From contig JAICQO010000074.1 in assembly GCA_025937835.1 (NCBI GenBank), forward strand, positions 1 through 33,026: a stretch of DNA of 33,026 nucleotides, in the 5' to 3' direction. Position numbers and translations under genes: made by a program. This document shows positions 1,215-10,657 of the stretch, one piece after another (position 1 is the stretch's first letter; the number at the start of each line of letters is the position of its first letter). This DNA comes from Polyangiaceae bacterium. Its GTDB lineage: Bacteria; Myxococcota_A; Polyangia; Polyangiales; Polyangiaceae. Below the pieces are notes generated by a model that searched no databases, had not been told where the DNA came from, and saw nothing but the letters and a program-made list of their open reading frames with translations.

Positions 1215-4200
1215 TCAATGAAAGTCGCGCGACACCTTGCCGATGTCGCGCCCGGGAACGTCCATGCGCTCGAGGTGATCGACGACGACGTGCACGACCG
1301 TCTCGCTCCCGTCTCGCTCGAGCTCGGGATCCGCGTGTTCCAGCTTGCCTTCGACGAGCAAGATCGAAGAGTGCACGGCCGGCAGCCGGAACTGCTCGAA
1401 CACCCGTCGAAACAAGACCAGGTTGATGAAGCCGGTCTCGTCTTCCAACGTCATGAACACCACGCCGCTGGCGGTCGCTGGCTGTTGCCGGCAGATCACC
1501 ACCCCCGCCGCTCGCACGCGCCGATCCGGCGGAAGCTTCTGGAGCTCGAGGGCGCTCCGCACGCCCCTCCCTGCGAGCTTCGGGCGCAGCAACGCCATCG
1601 GGTGCCGATCGACGCTCAGCCCCTTTCTCCGGTAATCGAGCAACACGCTCTGTTCGGGGCGGAGCGCCGGTAATTGCGGCGCCGGCTCTTGCCAGCTCTG
1701 GTCTTGGAACAAGCCCGAAAGCCGCGGCGCTCGGCTCACCCACAGGGCTTGCCGCCGGCCGCGCACCAGCGACTCGAACGCGCCCGCCTCGGCCAGCGCC
1801 TCGATCTCGTTCTTCTGGAGCGCGGCGCGCCGGGCCACGTCGTCGATGTCGGAGAAGCGCCACTCTTTGCGCGCGGCTTCGATGCGCCGCCCGCTCGCCT
1901 CACCGATGCCCTTCACGAGCCGGAACCCGACGCGGATCGCGCGGTCCACCGTCACCCCTGCGCGCGCATCCGGCTGGCACGGCTCGAGCGTCGAGTCCCA
2001 GTTGCTGTGCGCGATGTCCACGTCGCGCACAGCAACTCCATGACGCCGCGCATCCCCCAAAATCGTGGACGGTGAATAGAAGCCCATCGGCTGCGAGTTG
2101 AGCAGCGCGCACGCAAAATGCGCCGGATAGTGCGTCTTCTCCCAGGCCGAGGCGTACACGAGCAGCGCGAACGACGCCGCGTGCGACTCGGGGAAGCCGT
2201 AGTCGCCGAAGCCCTTGATCTGCTCGAACAGCGCCTCGCCGAACTCCCGCGCGATGCCCTTCTTCGCAAAGCCCTCGAGCAGCCGCTCGCGGTGCCGCAT
2301 CAGCTTGCCGTTCCTGCGCCAGGCCGCCATGTCGCGCCGCAGCTGATCGGCCTCGCCGCCCGTGTAACCGGCTCCGGTGATCGCGATCTGCATGACCTGC
2401 TCTTGAAAGAGCGGCACCCCGAGCGTCCGCTCCAGGATCGACGCGAGCTCCGGGTGCGGCATCACCACTTCTTCCTGCTTGTTCCGGCGGCGCAGGTACG
2501 GGTGCACCATGCCGCCCTGGATCGGGCCCGGCCGCACGATCGCCACCTCGATCACGAGGTCGTAATACGACTTCGGCCGCAGGCGCGGCAGCATCGCCAT
2601 CTGCGCGCGGCTCTCGATCTGGAACACGCCGACCGTGTCGGCGCGCGCCAGGCTCTCGTACACTCGCTGGTTCTCCGGCGGGATGCGCACCACGACGTCG
2701 AGCGGGTCGAACTCTTCTCCAGGCTTCGCGCCGAGCCCGCCGTCTTCGTGGATCAACGCCAGGGCTTTGCGGATCGCCGTCAGCATGCCCAGGCCGAGCA
2801 CGTCGACCTTGAAGAACCGGAGCGCGTCGAGGTCGTCCTTGTCCCAGGGCACGACCGTGCGCCCCGGCATGCGCGCCGGCTCGACGGGCGCCACCTCGTC
2901 GAGCGCCGTGGCAGACAGCACGAAGCCGCCGACGTGAATCGACAGATGCCGCGGGAAACCCTGGAGCTCTTGGGCAAGCGCCAGGATCCGCCCGAGCCGC
3001 GCGTCCTCGGGATCGAAGCCCATCTCCCTGAGCCGGCCTCGCGACTGCTCGGCCTCGTCCCAATGCCCGATCGTCGAGGACAGCTGTTCGATCATCTCGA
3101 GCGACAAGCCGAAGGCTTTGCCCACTTCTCGCAGCGCGCTCCGGCCCCGGTAACAGATCACCTCCGAGACCATGGCCGCGCGCTCGCGACCGTAGCGCTC
3201 GTAAATCTCCTGGATCACCTCCTCGCGCCGCTCGTGCTCGAAATCGATGTCGATGTCCGGCGGCTCGCAGCGTTCCACGCTCAAGAAGCGCTCGAAGAGC
3301 AGGCTCGAGCGCGCCGGATCGACCGCGGTGATGCCGAGCGCATAGCAGACCGCGCTGTTGGCGGCGCTGCCCCGCCCCTGACACAGGATCCGCCGCCGCC
3401 GCGCGATCTGCACGATTTCCCAGGTGCTCAAAAAATACGGCGCGACGTCGATGGTGCGGATCAGCGCCAGCTCTTTCTCGATTTGCTCGAGCACCCTGGG
3501 CGGCGCCCCGCCCGGGTAACGCTCCTTCACGCCCGCGAACGTGAGCTCGCGCAGCTTCTCGTCCGCGCTCTCTCCCTCGGCGATTTCGCAGGGAAATCGA
3601 TAGTTGAGCTCGCCCAGCGAAAACTCGAGCCGCTCCGCGATTTCTCCGCTGAGCTCGACGAAGCCGGGGCGATCACGGAACAGCTCCAGCATCTCGCGCG
3701 GTGAGCGCAGGTGCGCCTCGGTGTTGGCGGAGAGCGCAGTCCCGGCGCGATCGAGCGTCGTGCTGTTGCGGATGCAGTACACGACGTCGGCCAGCGCCTT
3801 GCGCGAAGCGTCGTGATACAGCGGGCGCGCGCTGGCCGCGATCGGTATCCCGTAACGCGCCGAGCTCACCTCGGCCCAGTGCAAGCGCTCGGCGTCGAAG
3901 CCGTCCTTGTGCCGGTACATGCCCAGAGCCGCGCGCTCGCCGAACGCCGCGCGCACCGACACGAACAGCTCGTGCCGCGGCGTGCTCGCGCTGCCGGGCC
4001 GTTTGGGCGCCGGCACGAGCGCGAATAACCCTTCAGAGTGCTCACGGAGCCAGCCGAGCTCGAGCTCGCTCTCGCCTTTCGGCAAGTCGGCGTGGGCGCG
4101 GGTCAGGAGCCGGCACAGATTGCGGTAGCCCGCGTGGTTCTCGACCAACAGGGCCAGCGTCGGCCGCTCGACTGGAACCTTGCGCTTCGGAGCCGCCACG

Positions 4201-4427
4201 CCGCGGCGCGGGCTGCCGTCGCCGAGCGTGAGCTCGGCTCCCACGATCACGCGCTGCGAGAGCTCTCGCCCCGCGATGAAGGCGCGCGCCGAGCCGTACA
4301 GCCCGTCGCGATCGCAGAGCGCCAGCGCAGGGAGCTCGAGCTCCTTGGCTCGGGCCACGACCTCGTGCGGGTGAGAGGCGCCGCGCAGGAACGAAAAGGA
4401 CGAACAGCCGAGGAGCTCGGCGAACAT
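1215..4427 (-). CDS. dnaE2: Error-prone DNA polymerase III alpha subunit DnaE2 (ImuC)
   Basis: Full-length DnaE2 (1070 aa), the translesion replicative-type polymerase that works with ImuA and ImuB in damage-induced mutagenesis. A PHP domain occupies the N-terminus (SFSFLRGASHPHEVV, LALCDRDGLYG). The polymerase core has GRGSAANS at 351-358 and the catalytic-acid motif PPDIDIDFEHERR around 389-401, with the further VDVLGLGML motif near 545. An OB domain precedes the C-terminus, which ends SRDFH as is typical of DnaE2 rather than the housekeeping DnaE. The ATG at 4427 begins MFAELLGCSSFSFL, a standard start for the family. Its partners imuA and imuB lie 2.9 kb upstream on the same strand. A LexA-box-like site fills the promoter spacer directly upstream, so induction by DNA damage is likely. 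Confidence 0.96.
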   Translation of the reverse strand: MFAELLGCSSFSFLRGASHPHEVVARAKELELPALALCDRDGLYGSARAFIAGRELSQRVIVGAELTLGDGSPRRGVAAPKRKVPVERPTLALLVENHAGYRNLCRLLTRAHADLPKGESELELGWLREHSEGLFALVPAPKRPGSASTPRHELFVSVRAAFGERAALGMYRHKDGFDAERLHWAEVSSARYGIPIAASARPLYHDASRKALADVVYCIRNSTTLDRAGTALSANTEAHLRSPREMLELFRDRPGFVELSGEIAERLEFSLGELNYRFPCEIAEGESADEKLRELTFAGVKERYPGGAPPRVLEQIEKELALIRTIDVAPYFLSTWEIVQIARRRRILCQGRGSAANSAVCYALGITAVDPARSSLLFERFLSVERCEPPDIDIDFEHERREEVIQEIYERYGRERAAMVSEVICYRGRSALREVGKAFGLSLEMIEQLSSTIGHWDEAEQSRGRLREMGFDPEDARLGRILALAQELQGFPRHLSIHVGGFVLSATALDEVAPVEPARMPGRTVVPWDKDDLDALRFFKVDVLGLGMLTAIRKALALIHEDGGLGAKPGEEFDPLDVVVRIPPENQRVYESLARADTVGVFQIESRAQMAMLPRLRPKSYYDLVIEVAIVRPGPIQGGMVHPYLRRRNKQEEVVMPHPELASILERTLGVPLFQEQVMQIAITGAGYTGGEADQLRRDMAAWRRNGKLMRHRERLLEGFAKKGIAREFGEALFEQIKGFGDYGFPESHAASFALLVYASAWEKTHYPAHFACALLNSQPMGFYSPSTILGDARRHGVAVRDVDIAHSNWDSTLEPCQPDARAGVTVDRAIRVGFRLVKGIGEASGRRIEAARKEWRFSDIDDVARRAALQKNEIEALAEAGAFESLVRGRRQALWVSRAPRLSGLFQDQSWQEPAPQLPALRPEQSVLLDYRRKGLSVDRHPMALLRPKLAGRGVRSALELQKLPPDRRVRAAGVVICRQQPATASGVVFMTLEDETGFINLVLFRRVFEQFRLPAVHSSILLVEGKLEHADPELERDGSETVVHVVVDHLERMDVPGRDIGKVSRDFH

Positions 4428-4436
4428 GACGGCTTC

Positions 4437-4465
4437 GTGATACTGAACGCGCGCTCAGTTGTCCA
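4437..4465 (-). promoter_or_regulatory. dnaE2 promoter with LexA-box-like operator in its spacer
   Basis: Read on the minus strand: TGGACA (4460-4465) as -35, a 17-base spacer, then TATCAC (4437-4442) as -10. The site CTGAGCGCGCGTTCAGT (4442-4458) covers nearly the whole spacer and matches 15 of 17 positions of the Myxococcus xanthus LexA box as I recall it (CTRHAMRYBYGTTCAGS). It also contains an inverted repeat, CTGA-N8-TCAG. LexA bound here would block RNA polymerase. The predicted transcript would start only a few bases before the ATG at 4427. The promoter hexamers are imperfect; the operator is the stronger part of the call. Confidence 0.6.
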
Positions 4466-5694: not shown

Positions 5695-6321
5695 TCAGAA
5701 CGACATAATCCAGGTTTTGAGGCATTCCAGATCGGGACCCGTCACGCCGTTACCGGAGGGCATCGCTGGACCGCAATCGGACGTCCCGGAAATGCGCTTG
5801 AGCAGCACGCTCTGAGCGGGGTTTTCGGAGTCGATCAGCTTGGTGCCGCAAGTCGCTGTGTTCGTGGCCAGCATGTTCACGGCGGTGACGTTCAGCAGCC
5901 GCTCGGTGACGGTGGGCCCCATCAAGTCGAGCCCGCCGAAGGAGTCCTTGGTCGCCGGGGCATGACAGATCGTACACGTCGCGTTCGTCAATGCCGTCGT
6001 GACGCACGCCGGGAGCGCCGGAGGGCCGCTGCTCGAGCCACCCGTTGCAGGAGCCCCACCCGTGACCGTACCGGGCGTCCCACCCGTGACCGTACCAGGC
6101 GTCCCGCCCGTGACCGTACCGGGCGTCCCGCCCGTGACCGTACCGGGCGTTCCGCCCGCCGCAGGTGCGGACCCACCCCTTGCTGCGGAGTATGCATCCG
6201 GATCGGCGAGCTCCGCCGCGCAGCCTCCAGCGAGCGTTGCGGCGCTTACTAGGCCGAACGCAGCAAGCAGTGTGGAACGAGTCGAAAGCCTGGGGAAACC
6301 ACGAAGGACCTTGAGGGGCAT
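5695..6321 (-). CDS. Cytochrome c-like lipoprotein with canonical CXXCH (paralogue 2)
   Basis: Predicted lipoprotein of 208 aa with its lipidated Cys also at residue 34 (ATLAGGC). The linker holds four exact copies of an eight-residue unit, GGTPGTVT. The C-terminal domain carries a canonical haem c site CTICH (116-120), then GGLDLMGP, KLIDSENPAQSVLLKR, CGPAMPSGN and CLKTWI. It aligns along its length with the neighbour downstream, so the pair arose by tandem duplication. It is expected in the outer membrane or periplasm as an electron-carrying c-type lipoprotein; the partner cannot be read from context. The ATG at 6321 gives a basic n-region (MPLKVLRGFPRLSTR) and a good hydrophobic core. Confidence 0.78.
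   Translation of the reverse strand: MPLKVLRGFPRLSTRSTLLAAFGLVSAATLAGGCAAELADPDAYSAARGGSAPAAGGTPGTVTGGTPGTVTGGTPGTVTGGTPGTVTGGAPATGGSSSGPPALPACVTTALTNATCTICHAPATKDSFGGLDLMGPTVTERLLNVTAVNMLATNTATCGTKLIDSENPAQSVLLKRISGTSDCGPAMPSGNGVTGPDLECLKTWIMSF
6059..6154. repeat. Four-copy 24-bp in-frame tandem repeat in lipoprotein linker
   Basis: Four adjacent 24-bp units (6059, 6083, 6107, 6131) differ from each other by only one or two bases, around the core cccgtgaccgtacc. They encode GGTPGTVT repeats in the minus-strand lipoprotein. Unit length is a multiple of three, so copy-number change would lengthen the linker without shifting frame. Confidence 0.9.
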
Positions 6322-7286: not shown

Positions 7287-8954
7287 CTAATCGACCACGC
7301 CCTGCAAATAACGGCGATTGGTGTCGCGATCGACGAACGCCAGCGCTTCCCAAACGCCGGACGAGCCGCGCAGCGTGAGGCGGACGTAGTCGCGCGAAAT
7401 CGAGTGCGACCACCACTCGACGGCTTCGAGGCGCGCTTCGAACGAGACGGCTTCGATCACGTACAGGCGCTTGCCCACGCCCAGCGTGGCGCCGGCGCGC
7501 AGCGGAGCTTCGAACTCGACGGGCTCCGGAAACAAGCGAGTCGGCGGGCCGAACGTCGCACCCGACGCCTGCGCCTTCGTCACTGCGACGGGTGAAGGGC
7601 GTGCGGGGCGTGCGGGGCGCGTCTTCTTGAGCTCGGTGCGCGAGGGCGCCTCTTTGGGGAAGACCGGCGCGAGCTGGCTGCGCTGCTCCGGCCGGTGAGA
7701 GTCGAGCACGCCGAGCACGCCGACGCGCTCTTCTCCCAAATCGGCGCAGAGCTCGGCCACGACCAGCGGCAGCTCGTCCTCTGCCTCGGCGCTCGTGCCG
7801 TTCAGCAACGACTCGAGCTCGAGCTGGCGCGGCACGGCCTCGGTCAGGCGCGTGGCTTCCAGGCGCAGACCGACCGACGGCGTATCGAGCGAGGTGCGCT
7901 CGAGGCGCGAGCCGAGCACGCGCCGCAGATCGCTCTCGCGGTACATCGGCTTGGCGAGCGTGAAGCGCAGGCAGCGCTCGGCAGGCACGCCGCGGAAGCG
8001 CGCGCGCCCGCGATCCCCGTGGATCGTCAGATGGATCTCCGCCGCTGCCTCGCCTCGCCCTTGAAGCCGCGCCGACAGCCGCGAAAGCAAGCCGCGGAGC
8101 GCGAAGCCGAGCGGCTCGACGCCGGCCACCGGCTCGTCCCAGCTCGTCTCTTCTACGAGCACGCGCGGCGGCGTGAACGGCACGAGCGGCTCGTGGTCGC
8201 GACCGGCGAGCAAATCGAGCACGCGCGGCGCTTGCGACCCGAGCCGGAGCCCGAGCGCGCCCTTCGGCAGCCCGTGAAGATCAGCGAAGGTGAGCACCCC
8301 GAGCCGGATGAACCAACTCTGCATCTCGTCGGAGAGCGGCAGCGCGCGGACCGGCAGCGCCGCCATTTCCGAGAACGTGCGCTCGCTCGGCACGACGCGC
8401 GCCCCCTCGGCGTCGAGATCTCCATAACGCGCGAAGGCCTGCGCGAGCCGGGGGCCGTCGGAGACCGCCACGCGCGCGCGATGCCCGATCGAGCGCACGA
8501 GCGAGCCGAGCTCGGCGACGAGCGCGCCTTCTCCACCGAACAGGTGCGTGCCGCCCGTGACGTCGACCCAGACCGTGTCCGGGAGCTCCAACGCCACGGT
8601 GGCACCGAACCCCGAGGCGATCTCCGCGACGCGACCCAGGCCTTGCTCGAGCTCGGCGCGCGACACGCGCTGCACGTCGAGCCGCGCCGAGAGAGCTCGC
8701 GCTTCGGCCAGCGTCTGTCCGGCTCTCACGCCGAGCCGGTGCGCGCGGGCGTTGACCGCCGCGAGCACGCTGGTCGCGGAGATCTCTTCCGTATCGTTCG
8801 GATCGCCCAGCACGACTGCGAGCGGGGGGCGCTCGCGCTGCGCCTCGGGCACCGGCCGGAGCTCGACGAGCTCGGACCACAGCGCGGGCAGCACCACGGC
8901 CACGATCCGGCGCTTTGCCCGAAGCTCGGCTGCTTTTTCAGCCCGTTTTGTCAT
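7287..8954 (-). CDS. imuB: ImuB, catalytically inactive Y-family polymerase homologue
   Basis: ImuB (555 aa) is the hub of the ImuA-ImuB-DnaE2 mutasome, linking DnaE2 to the sliding clamp. The N-terminal half has the Y-family fold, but the usual catalytic acids are missing: the first motif reads IVAVVLPALWSELVELR instead of a D-x-D-containing motif, and the second reads VWVDVTGGTHLFGGE, as in other ImuB proteins. A little-finger-like region follows. SQLAPVF at about residue 430 resembles a clamp-binding motif with one extra residue. A C-terminal domain with WWSHSISRDYVRL and RRYLQGV resembles the conserved ImuB tail. The ATG overlaps the end of imuA by 17 bases, so translation is coupled. Confidence 0.92.
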   Translation of the reverse strand: MTKRAEKAAELRAKRRIVAVVLPALWSELVELRPVPEAQRERPPLAVVLGDPNDTEEISATSVLAAVNARAHRLGVRAGQTLAEARALSARLDVQRVSRAELEQGLGRVAEIASGFGATVALELPDTVWVDVTGGTHLFGGEGALVAELGSLVRSIGHRARVAVSDGPRLAQAFARYGDLDAEGARVVPSERTFSEMAALPVRALPLSDEMQSWFIRLGVLTFADLHGLPKGALGLRLGSQAPRVLDLLAGRDHEPLVPFTPPRVLVEETSWDEPVAGVEPLGFALRGLLSRLSARLQGRGEAAAEIHLTIHGDRGRARFRGVPAERCLRFTLAKPMYRESDLRRVLGSRLERTSLDTPSVGLRLEATRLTEAVPRQLELESLLNGTSAEAEDELPLVVAELCADLGEERVGVLGVLDSHRPEQRSQLAPVFPKEAPSRTELKKTRPARPARPSPVAVTKAQASGATFGPPTRLFPEPVEFEAPLRAGATLGVGKRLYVIEAVSFEARLEAVEWWSHSISRDYVRLTLRGSSGVWEALAFVDRDTNRRYLQGVVD

Positions 8955-9675
8955 GACGGAGCTCGTGGGTTCGCGGTTGCCCCTTGCCGAACGCCACGGA
9001 ACGCGGCGCGGTGATCCGGCCCTGGCGATCTTTGGCGAGCCGCACCATCAGGCGGTTCAGGGCCGGTCGCGCGATTTCGAGGCGCTGAGCCACCGGCAGC
9101 GGCAGGCTGCGCGGAGAGCTGGCCGACGTGAGCAGCACCACGCTGCGGTTCGAACCGTCGACCTCGAGCGCGAGCCGCCGCACCAGGCGCGGCCAGTCGC
9201 GCAGCGCCACCTCGTGCGAAGCCCCCGGCACGCCCAGCGTATCGACCACCACCAGCTCGAACGCCGGCGAGTGCGCGAGCCGGATCGCCGTGCGCGACAG
9301 CGCCTCGAGCGACGGGCGCACCACCAGCAGGCGATCGAGCCGCACACCGGCCGCGACCACGCCCGGGGCATGCAGCGTGCCCCCGGGGTCGAGGAACGCC
9401 GCCCAGGGCACGGTCTGCCCGGCGCGCTCGCGCTCGGCTTGGAGGTGGTGGACCAGGCCGAGCGAGAGCGACGTGCCCGGCGCTCCCTCGGCCAGCGAAA
9501 GTTCGATGACGCCCCCGCGCTGGAGCCCCCTGTCGGGGAGGGCCTCGTCCAGCTCGGCGATCCCGAATCCGAACCCGTCCCGAGCCCCCTCGTCTTGGGA
9601 ACGGTTGCCGCCGACCCGCAGGGCGCGGGCCAGAGCCGGAGAGAATCGAGCAGCCAGGTGCGCGGGCAGCGCCAT
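8938..9675 (-). CDS. imuA: ImuA, RecA/SulA-like mutasome protein
   Basis: ImuA (245 aa) is a RecA-related protein needed with ImuB and DnaE2 for induced mutagenesis. The core reads GIAELDEALPDRGLQRGGVIEL, then a RecA-like fold with PWAAFLDPGGTLHAPGVVAAG, LDRLLVVRP, ELVVVDTLG and NRSVVLLTS. The Walker A position is degenerate (LAEGAPGTSLSL), as is usual for ImuA. Start codons GTG (9678) and ATG (9675) are adjacent; I use the ATG. There is no ribosome site; instead a LexA-box-like element abuts the start, which hints at a leaderless message. imuB follows with a 17-base overlap. Confidence 0.9.
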   Translation of the reverse strand: MALPAHLAARFSPALARALRVGGNRSQDEGARDGFGFGIAELDEALPDRGLQRGGVIELSLAEGAPGTSLSLGLVHHLQAERERAGQTVPWAAFLDPGGTLHAPGVVAAGVRLDRLLVVRPSLEALSRTAIRLAHSPAFELVVVDTLGVPGASHEVALRDWPRLVRRLALEVDGSNRSVVLLTSASSPRSLPLPVAQRLEIARPALNRLMVRLAKDRQGRITAPRSVAFGKGQPRTHELRHDKTG

Positions 9676-9676
9676 C

Positions 9677-9693
9677 ACTGAACAAACTAGCAG
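9677..9693 (-). promoter_or_regulatory. LexA-box-like operator 1 at imuA start
   Basis: The minus strand reads CTGCTAGTTTGTTCAGT, 15 of 17 matches to the M. xanthus LexA box consensus as I recall it. It mismatches at positions 5 and 17, the same two positions as the dnaE2 site. It touches the imuA start codon, so a bound repressor would block initiation or early elongation. Confidence 0.6.
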
Positions 9694-9698
9694 CTACC

Positions 9699-9715
9699 AC
9701 TGAACAGGCCAGCAC
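9699..9715 (-). promoter_or_regulatory. LexA-box-like operator 2 upstream of imuA
   Basis: The minus strand reads GTGCTGGCCTGTTCAGT, 13 of 17 matches, with an intact GTTCAG core. It begins 22 bp from operator 1, about two helical turns, so two LexA dimers could bind on the same face. It is the weaker of the two sites. Confidence 0.42.
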
Positions 9716-9808
9716 TCACGGCGCTAGCTAGGACAAACAATGACCGGTTCTGGTTCCGCGGCCGGCGCACAAGCCCTTCGACTTTCGAAGTGTTATGCCT
9801 GATCGGTC

Positions 9809-10657
9809 GTGACGGAAGTGGCCCTCCCCCAGGTAACCGGACAGCTCGATGCGTTGCGCGCCCGTCTGCGAGAGCTCGGCTCGGTGCTGGTTTGCTACTC
9901 GGGCGGCATCGACAGCGCGTTCGTCCTGGCCGTGGCGACCGAAGAGCTCGGCGAGCGCGCGGTGGGCATGACTGCCGTGAGCCCGAGCCTACCCCAGAGC
10001 GAAAAGGACGACGCCTCGCGGATCGCGCTCGCGCTCGGTGCCACCCACCGCTTCGTCGATTCGAACGAGCTCGCGCGCGACGCTTACGTGAAGAACGGCC
10101 CCGACCGCTGCTTCCACTGCAAGACGGAGCTCTACAGCATCGCTCGCGACAAGGCGCGGGAGTGGCAGCTCGCGGCGATCGTCAACGGCACCAACACCGA
10201 CGACCTCGGCGACTACCGCCCCGGGCTCGAAGCCGCGCGCGAAGCCGGCGTGGTGAGCCCGCTGCTCGACGCCGGCATGAACAAGGCGGCTGTGCGCGCC
10301 GCCGCCCAGGCCATCGGCATGGAGATCTGGGACAAGCCCGCCGCTGCTTGCCTCTCGAGCCGCATCCCTTACGGCACCAGCGTTACCCGCGAGCGTTTGG
10401 CTCAGATCGGCGCCTTCGAAGCCGAGCTCCGCGCGCTCGGCTTTCGCCAGGTCCGCGTGCGCTGGCACGACAGCATCGCGCGCATCGAGCTCGACCTGTC
10501 CGAGCTCGAGCGCCTGCTCAATCCGGAGCTCCGCGCCGCTGCGCTCGAAGCCGGCAAGCGCCAGGGTTTCCGCTACGTGACGCTGGACCTCGGCGGCTAC
10601 CGCACGGGCTCACACAACGAAGTCCTGGTCGGTCGTTCGCTTCCGCTGATCACGTAG
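9809..10657 (+). CDS. larE: LarE-type ATP-dependent sacrificial sulfur transferase
   Basis: PP-loop enzyme of 282 aa. In lactate racemase maturation, LarE activates the pyridinium dicarboxylate by adenylation and donates sulfur from its own cysteine to make the nickel-pincer nucleotide. The ATP loop SGGIDS is at 31-36. The conserved cysteine lies in PAAACLSSRIPYG (Cys181), equivalent to the sacrificial Cys of Lactobacillus LarE. CFHC at 101-104 is also family-typical, and NGTNTDDLGDYRPG is conserved. The start is GTG at 9809, with no strong ribosome site. No larB, larC or lactate racemase gene is present in this window, so the cofactor role is inferred from family only. It is divergent from imuA and convergent with pnp. 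Confidence 0.85.
   Translation: MTEVALPQVTGQLDALRARLRELGSVLVCYSGGIDSAFVLAVATEELGERAVGMTAVSPSLPQSEKDDASRIALALGATHRFVDSNELARDAYVKNGPDRCFHCKTELYSIARDKAREWQLAAIVNGTNTDDLGDYRPGLEAAREAGVVSPLLDAGMNKAAVRAAAQAIGMEIWDKPAAACLSSRIPYGTSVTRERLAQIGAFEAELRALGFRQVRVRWHDSIARIELDLSELERLLNPELRAAALEAGKRQGFRYVTLDLGGYRTGSHNEVLVGRSLPLIT

Follow-up and report, generated by a model that had tools for sequence, protein, structure and literature searches.

Organization of the imuA promoter region

The window analysed here is the whole stretch of 33,026 nucleotides from a Polyangiaceae bacterium, and the gene set of a RecA-like ImuA, a Y-family ImuB and DnaE2 is all present in it. The dnaE2 gene lies downstream of imuA-imuB and is separated from them by other ORFs. 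The imuA gene was identified by the family alignment and by a Pfam RecA match, whose score of 23.4 bits is below the curated cut-off of 27. The features of the region are as follows.

1215..4427, minus strand: dnaE2, error-prone DNA polymerase III alpha type (Pfam DNA_pol3_alpha, finger, HHH_6 and PHP)
4443..4458, minus strand: LexA-type box CTGAGCGCGCGTTCAG (T at 4442), 14 nt ahead of the dnaE2 ATG
7287..8954, minus strand: imuB, Y-family-like, overlapping the imuA end (Pfam IMS and IMS_C)
8938..9675, minus strand: imuA, RecA-like accessory gene, ATG at 9675-9673
9678..9693, minus strand: proximal LexA-type operator CTGCTAGTTTGTTCAG (T next at 9677), abutting the imuA start
9684..9689, minus strand: likely -10 element TAGTTT inside the proximal box, proposed from the sequence and the family TANNNT
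9699..9705, minus strand: distal GTTCAGT half-site, within the likely -35/-10 spacer
9700-9715, minus strand: distal 16-mer GTGCTGGCCTGTTCAG, containing the distal GTTCAG
9707..9712, minus strand: possible -35 element CTGGCC, 17 bp upstream of TAGTTT, read from the sequence as a weak TTGACA match
9731..9745, minus strand: palindrome GGTCATTGTTTGTCC, a member of KGWCAN5TGTCC and candidate operator of a second regulator
9809-10657: divergent gene (Pfam Asn_synthase; LarE-like by reading), sharing its intergenic region with imuA

Read along the minus strand toward imuA, the order is GGTCATTGTTTGTCC at 9745-9731, CTGGCC at 9712-9707, GTTCAGT at 9705-9699, CTGCTAGTTTGTTCAGT at 9693-9677, a single G, and the ATG at 9675-9673. 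Between imuB and dnaE2, the window also carries a lipoprotein-like ORF (5695-6321, minus strand) with GTPGTVTG repeat units and no Pfam match.

The imuA-imuB-dnaE2 set is a known LexA-regulated mutagenesis cassette, and the present locus resembles it in gene content and in its damage-type promoter. It differs in that dnaE2 stands apart from imuAB with a box of its own, the imuA message is likely leaderless, and a palindrome is added to the promoter.

LexA-type boxes at imuA and elsewhere in the genome

A sequence-only reading of this DNA had described two GTTCAGT copies 22 bp apart, with the proximal one touching the imuA start codon. The exact match search agreed, placing them on the minus strand at 9677-9683 and 9699-9705, 22 bp start to start, and the proximal one reads GTTCAG-TG-ATG into the start codon. 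The number of bare GTTCAGT copies is not unusual, with 4 in the window versus 1.56 expected and 10 of 100 shuffles reaching 4. When a motif derived from 38 imuA boxes at other loci was used to score the window, the proximal box came first (27.0), the dnaE2 box second (16.7) and the distal site third (12.6), while the best score per window in 20 shuffled control windows had a mean of 9.9 and a maximum of 18.2. The proximal box alone stands out by sequence, because its score exceeds the shuffled maximum. This motif is tuned to imuA and scores the lexA box of this genome at 6.1, and thus it is not a general LexA model.

The box is also conserved in the family, since CTG-N7-GTTCAG abuts imuA at 39 of 45 distinct loci. 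These promoters derive from 59 imuA loci, 30 from a family search and 29 named GTDB loci (Sorangium, Minicystis, a Nannocystis MAG and many Polyangiaceae/Myxococcales MAGs), after removal of 14 duplicates. The family search matched 60 of 60 genomes, its weak matches being RecA-like proteins and not ImuA, and a phylum search with ImuA at 1e-25 matched 12 of 140 genomes, all 12 in the same family. L032, which has no box, is counted within the 45, and L030 has a spurious anchor; counts out of 43 omit these two, and counts out of 41 omit also L025 and L028. GTTC-N7-GTTC, the alphaproteobacterial type of LexA box, was absent by reading.

The genome contains one Peptidase_S24 match, a lexA gene whose ATG lies 14 nt downstream of the box CTTAACACCCGTTCAGT. 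An exact search of the 6.9 Mb for CTNNNMNNNNGTTCAGT found 7 places, versus 3 for the reversed control: ahead of lexA, uvrA, imuA and dnaE2, in a radical-SAM-like/dnaG gap, in an rplU/xylanase-like gap, and once inside a gene (the names uvrA, dnaG, rplU, radical-SAM and xylanase were given from reading translations). The box in the interval between the radical-SAM-like gene and dnaG is CTGATAATCCGTTCAGT, near 1501-1517 of L005. Of 29 dnaE2 upstream regions read, 14 have a LexA-type box (at least 9/12, within 260 bp) and 15 show none, the set being 30 loci minus L278, whose match begins inside the gene. Several of the 15 genomes with a boxless dnaE2 (G006, G014, G039, G040 and G046) have dnaE2 and imuA on one strand, within a few kilobases of each other.

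In the available part of the M. xanthus study, the SOS box is given as CTRHAMRYBYGTTCAGS (PMC9705874). The boxes here are like it in the GTTCAG right half, the CT left end and the location before lexA, uvrA, dnaE2 and imuA, and unlike it in having a final T instead of C/G and, at imuA, in sitting on the likely -10 element and the start codon. The proximal and dnaE2 boxes have 2 mismatches each to this consensus, which alone is a weak test, as 13 window matches with at most 3 mismatches were found versus 11.4 expected. It had been claimed that the imuA and dnaE2 boxes share the same two deviations, in support of a common regulator. Both boxes do depart from the consensus at positions 5 and 17. 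By reading, however, imuA has T and dnaE2 has G at position 5, and the T at 17 is found also in the lexA box of this genome and in 33 of 38 family boxes. The shared deviation is thus no special evidence, and the final T is the lineage norm and local consensus.

Could a regulator other than LexA read the GTTCAGT boxes? According to the available part of PMC9705874, M. xanthus LexA binds well to the boxes of lexA and recA2 but weakly to that of pafBC and not to that of recN; of boxes similar to the present ones it binds CTGCTTGTTTGTTCAGG weakly and CTGCTAGGGTGTTCAGG not at all. In addition, mitomycin (10 h) raises ImuB in M. xanthus, yet its level falls rather than rises when lexA is deleted, as reported in the available part of PMC12288472, and this failure of derepression would also fit another reader. 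However, the same type of box precedes lexA, uvrA and dnaE2 in this genome, and a relaxed LexA-type site precedes recA in 48 of 51 genomes, and we consider a reader other than LexA very unlikely. The sequence-only reading is supported in placing a LexA-type operator at the start of imuA; this box belongs to one type with those before dnaE2, lexA and uvrA and is conserved in the family.

Start codon and leader of imuA

The ATG at 9675 is supported because many family proteins begin MALPA- directly after the box. An imuA start further downstream, which would have undone the earlier assignment, was ruled out by the conserved N-terminus (MALPAHLL type). An in-frame GTG at 9678-9676 takes the last G of the proximal GTTCAG. 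As the sequence-only reading had stated, no ribosome site is visible, and the ATG has no preceding Shine-Dalgarno core. In 28 of 41 loci, 0-5 nt separate the box from the start, with 1 nt commonest (11), and 26 of 41 have TANNNT at the corresponding -10 place. An AGGAGG is present in L027, where the gap is 12 nt. Since imuA starts 0-5 nt after the box in most loci and the box overlaps the likely -10 element, the imuA mRNA is probably leaderless or nearly so, which would explain the absent ribosome site. No report of a leaderless imuA was found in the literature searched, which mostly lay outside subscription journals. If true, a start codon within reach of the repressor footprint would make a clean leaderless SOS case, in which repression and translation start share the same few bases.

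The distal GTTCAGT is not a conserved partner of the proximal box

The sequence-only reading took the two boxes as a pair two helical turns apart, to be looked for in relatives. The proximal box is conserved there and the distal one is not, as an extra GTTCAG within 30 bp upstream occurs at 6 of 43 loci (0.24 expected), with spacings of 22 bp in L009, 20 in L015, 21 in L018, 20 in L020, 18 in L023 and 18 in L034. L015 and L020 belong to one genus, so that the six loci span five genera, and the sole same-genus relative, L010, has no extra GTTCAG. The distal 16-mer opens with GTG, not CTG, and holds 2 of the 6 left-half bases of CTGAAC. Judged as tandem LexA operators, that is two complete sites at constrained spacing, the pair fails in that the distal left half is absent, and a fixed 22-bp pair was ruled out by the variable spacing and poor conservation. 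The boxes themselves and their likely regulator had been correctly recognized, and the pair had been taken as the feature though only its proximal member is conserved.

Two readings of the distal site were weighed against each other. It is possible, but doubtful, that LexA binds both GTTCAGT copies cooperatively as two operators separated by two turns. In favour of this, the extra GTTCAG is 25-fold enriched over expectation, all six loci have it at 18-22 bp, and a weak proximal box would gain from a second site. The poor match of the left half argues against this, as do a spacing that varies by 4 bp and the absence of the extra copy from L010 and from 37 of 43 loci. That the proximal box alone matters and the distal copy is functionless is a plausible reading to which we give somewhat less than an even chance; it agrees with the poor left half, with the absence from the nearest relative and with a score of 12.6 that falls within the range of the shuffled windows, whereas the enrichment of the extra GTTCAG at six loci from five genera speaks against it. 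We read the distal GTTCAGT as a possible accessory half-site peculiar to this lineage, or else as a site with no role.

A conserved palindrome upstream of imuA and recA

The palindrome GGACAN5TGTCC at 9731-9745, 25 bp further up than the boxes, had not been mentioned in the sequence-only reading. The pattern KGWCAN5TGTCC was first spotted by reading the family promoters upstream of the box, and each promoter was scored by its matches out of 10 to GGACA/TGTCC in the interval from 70 to 20 bp ahead of the box. Of 43 imuA promoters, 28 scored at least 8/10 (0.34 expected, estimated from the same loci) and 15 did not; among 15 held-out loci that were not used to spot the palindrome, 11 reached this score versus 0.08 expected. 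By these counts, the palindrome is better conserved than the pair of boxes. As it sits in the shared intergenic region, the palindrome might instead serve the divergent gene at 9809-10657, but it stays before imuA where the upstream neighbour is another gene by reading (L134 in G036 and L137 in G014), and its distance to imuA is constrained; we regard service to the divergent gene as highly improbable.

The recA promoters showed a similar arrangement. An exact LexA-type site, CTGAAC-N7-CAGTA, lies upstream of recA at 29 of 30 loci (L090-L119), and in most of these 29 it fills, by reading, the gap between TTGACA-like and TATNNN-like elements; a relaxed match was found in 48 of 51 recA upstream regions. 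At 10 of the 29 loci, a palindrome scoring at least 8 starts 40-42 bp before the site, where 0.021 would be expected from these same loci. A wider table covers 48 recA promoters with a LexA-type site, of which 15 carry the palindrome and 33 do not; 13 of the 15 have it at 40-42 bp, and the remaining two at 31 and 52 bp. The main recA here thus has a LexA-type site, unlike M. xanthus recA1, which is reported to be without a LexA box in the available part of PMC7029660. The second recA of this genome has neither GTTCAG nor CTGAAC in the 500 bases around its start.

When we measured from palindrome start to -10 start, the distance was 56-58 bp in 13 of the 15 palindrome-bearing recA promoters, 56 bp in imuA of this genome, and 52-57 bp for 12 of the 18 imuA promoters in the non-redundant set, the remaining six falling at 42-46 and 64-68 bp. 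The palindrome centre would then lie at about -61 to -62 relative to the predicted transcription start, and a position near -61 is the classic place of a class I activator. A test of helical phasing on 18 offsets, after removal of 8 close relatives and of L014, L023 and L030, gave a modest result, P 0.015 over periods of 10-11.2, with the best fit at a period of 12.3 and not at 10.5, and the evidence for spacing by helical turns is no more than suggestive.

Distribution of the palindrome in the genome and the family

A search of this genome for GGWCAN5TGTCC gave 24 strand hits at 18 places, and the reversed control gave 5. We read 8 of the 18 places; five are ahead of imuA, recA, recN, an AAA-ATPase-like gene and a DNA-methyltransferase-like gene, and three are intragenic. 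The dnaE2 upstream region of this genome has no palindrome. Loci L053, L046 and L112 share the palindrome with window positions 9731-9745 (imuA, recA and this genome's recN promoters). In 12 family genomes, picked mostly for an imuA palindrome or a good assembly, GGACATWNNNTGTCC gave 51 strand hits versus 0 for the reversed control, with one genome lacking a hit. The neighbours were read at 47 loci of these 12 genomes and 4 of this genome. Among the matches listed, some palindromes precede dnaB-like, RecD2-like and PolX-like genes (names by reading). Similar DNA-methyltransferase-like genes of two genera, in L050 and L123, both have the palindrome upstream. Also among the matches listed, palindromes adjoin transposase-like genes in L145, L146, L157, L159, L163 and L164, and insertion elements may therefore account for part of the genome-wide excess.

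A recN match was obtained in 51 of 60 genomes, and 31 recN upstream regions were read; in a recN protein search at 1e-60, this genome was the sole match. The recN palindrome scores 10/10 in this genome and 9/10 at nearly the same distance in G030, with no other above 8. As 9 or 10 was reached at only 2 of 31 genes, recN was rejected as a regular target.

Candidate regulators binding the palindrome

This genome has three WYL matches, and the protein of locus L057 aligns over residues 2-327 with PDB chain 8tp8 (named DeoR-family regulator; E 3.3e-11), which we take to be DriD, the Caulobacter WYL activator. It is conceivable, though we lean against it, that a DriD/PafBC-like WYL protein encoded there binds the palindrome. 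Beside this structure-chain match, the DriD site ATACGAC-N7-GTCGTAT, as given in the available part of PMC12340889, has GAC-N7-GTC in common with the palindrome. Moreover, a palindrome of at least 8 at imuA or recA occurs in 22 of 28 genomes with an L057-like protein of at least 58% identity, in 0 of 26 with a less similar WYL protein, and in 1 of 4 without an orthologue-level WYL match (58 genomes, some with only one of the two promoters; the split matches of G020 and G024 were averaged). On the other hand, 6 of the 28 genomes with the protein show no palindrome, and in a RecA tree of 30 genomes those whose WYL protein is divergent group as one clade, so that the correlation may be one event. 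No strong palindrome precedes the WYL gene itself; autoregulation through it was rejected after the best scores in 30 upstream regions were 9 (G006) and 8 (G055 and G058), with the rest below 8. Known WYL activators also bind nearer to the promoter core, at -35 or further downstream: the usual span of PafBC motifs is -35/-10 (PMC8151990, available part), and the SiwR palindrome is likewise at -35/-10 (PMC10693628, available part).

The palindrome is like the DriD operator in its GAC-N7-GTC palindromic core and its association with DNA-damage genes, but only this inner core is matched and not the full consensus; the flanking base is C in DriD versus G here, and the DriD site overlaps -35 whereas the palindrome is centred near -61. 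With the mycobacterial PafBC motif (TGTCGG-N10-TANNNT; PMC8151990, available part), it has in common the TGTC core and the DNA-repair genes, whereas that motif is a directional half-site usually spanning -35/-10 and the palindrome lies further upstream; by reading, TGTCGG/AG/AC-N10-TANNNT is not matched here, the TGTC being far upstream of the -10 element (56 bp). The XRE regulator DdiA of M. xanthus is, like the putative palindrome binder, a damage-responsive co-regulator beside LexA in a myxobacterium, but it acts on dnaE2 and recX, and here dnaE2 is not preceded by the palindrome; in the available part of PMC12288472, no DdiA binding site was found. XRE-type regulator genes lie about 260 bp downstream of GGACAN5TGTCC in L142 (G014) and L154 (G056), and their products are a second candidate for the binder.

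A proposed model of dual control

Based on these observations, we suggest that 9673-9745 is probably a damage-inducible imuA-imuB promoter under two controls, LexA and a second regulator. A LexA dimer would bind CTGCTAGTTTGTTCAG, covering the -10 element and the transcription start, and would block RNA polymerase until RecA-stimulated LexA cleavage. Transcription would then start at or within a few bases of the ATG, giving a leaderless or near-leaderless message. A second damage-responsive regulator, probably an activator, may bind GGWCAN5TGTCC near -61 and serve recA too, and the distal GTTCAGT, as a lineage-specific extra LexA half-site in the promoter spacer, may strengthen repression. If the two-control model is true, one protein lifts and the other pushes.

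LexA control of imuA is expected. The more specific proposal, that Polyangiaceae possess a second DNA-damage regulator whose operator GGACAN5TGTCC lies at class I distance (about -61) before recA and imuA and which acts with LexA, is one to which we give about an even chance from the sequences at hand. In the literature searched, mostly without subscription-journal papers, we found neither a report of GGACAN5TGTCC nor a description of such a regulator. The myxobacterial DNA-damage response is partly LexA-independent, and its other regulators are largely undescribed. Further LexA- and DdiA-independent regulators have been called for in M. xanthus (Jung et al. 2025; PMC12288472, available part), and the second regulator could be of this kind. 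The palindrome, with its constrained place before recA and imuA, would offer a concrete bait for the protein that binds it.
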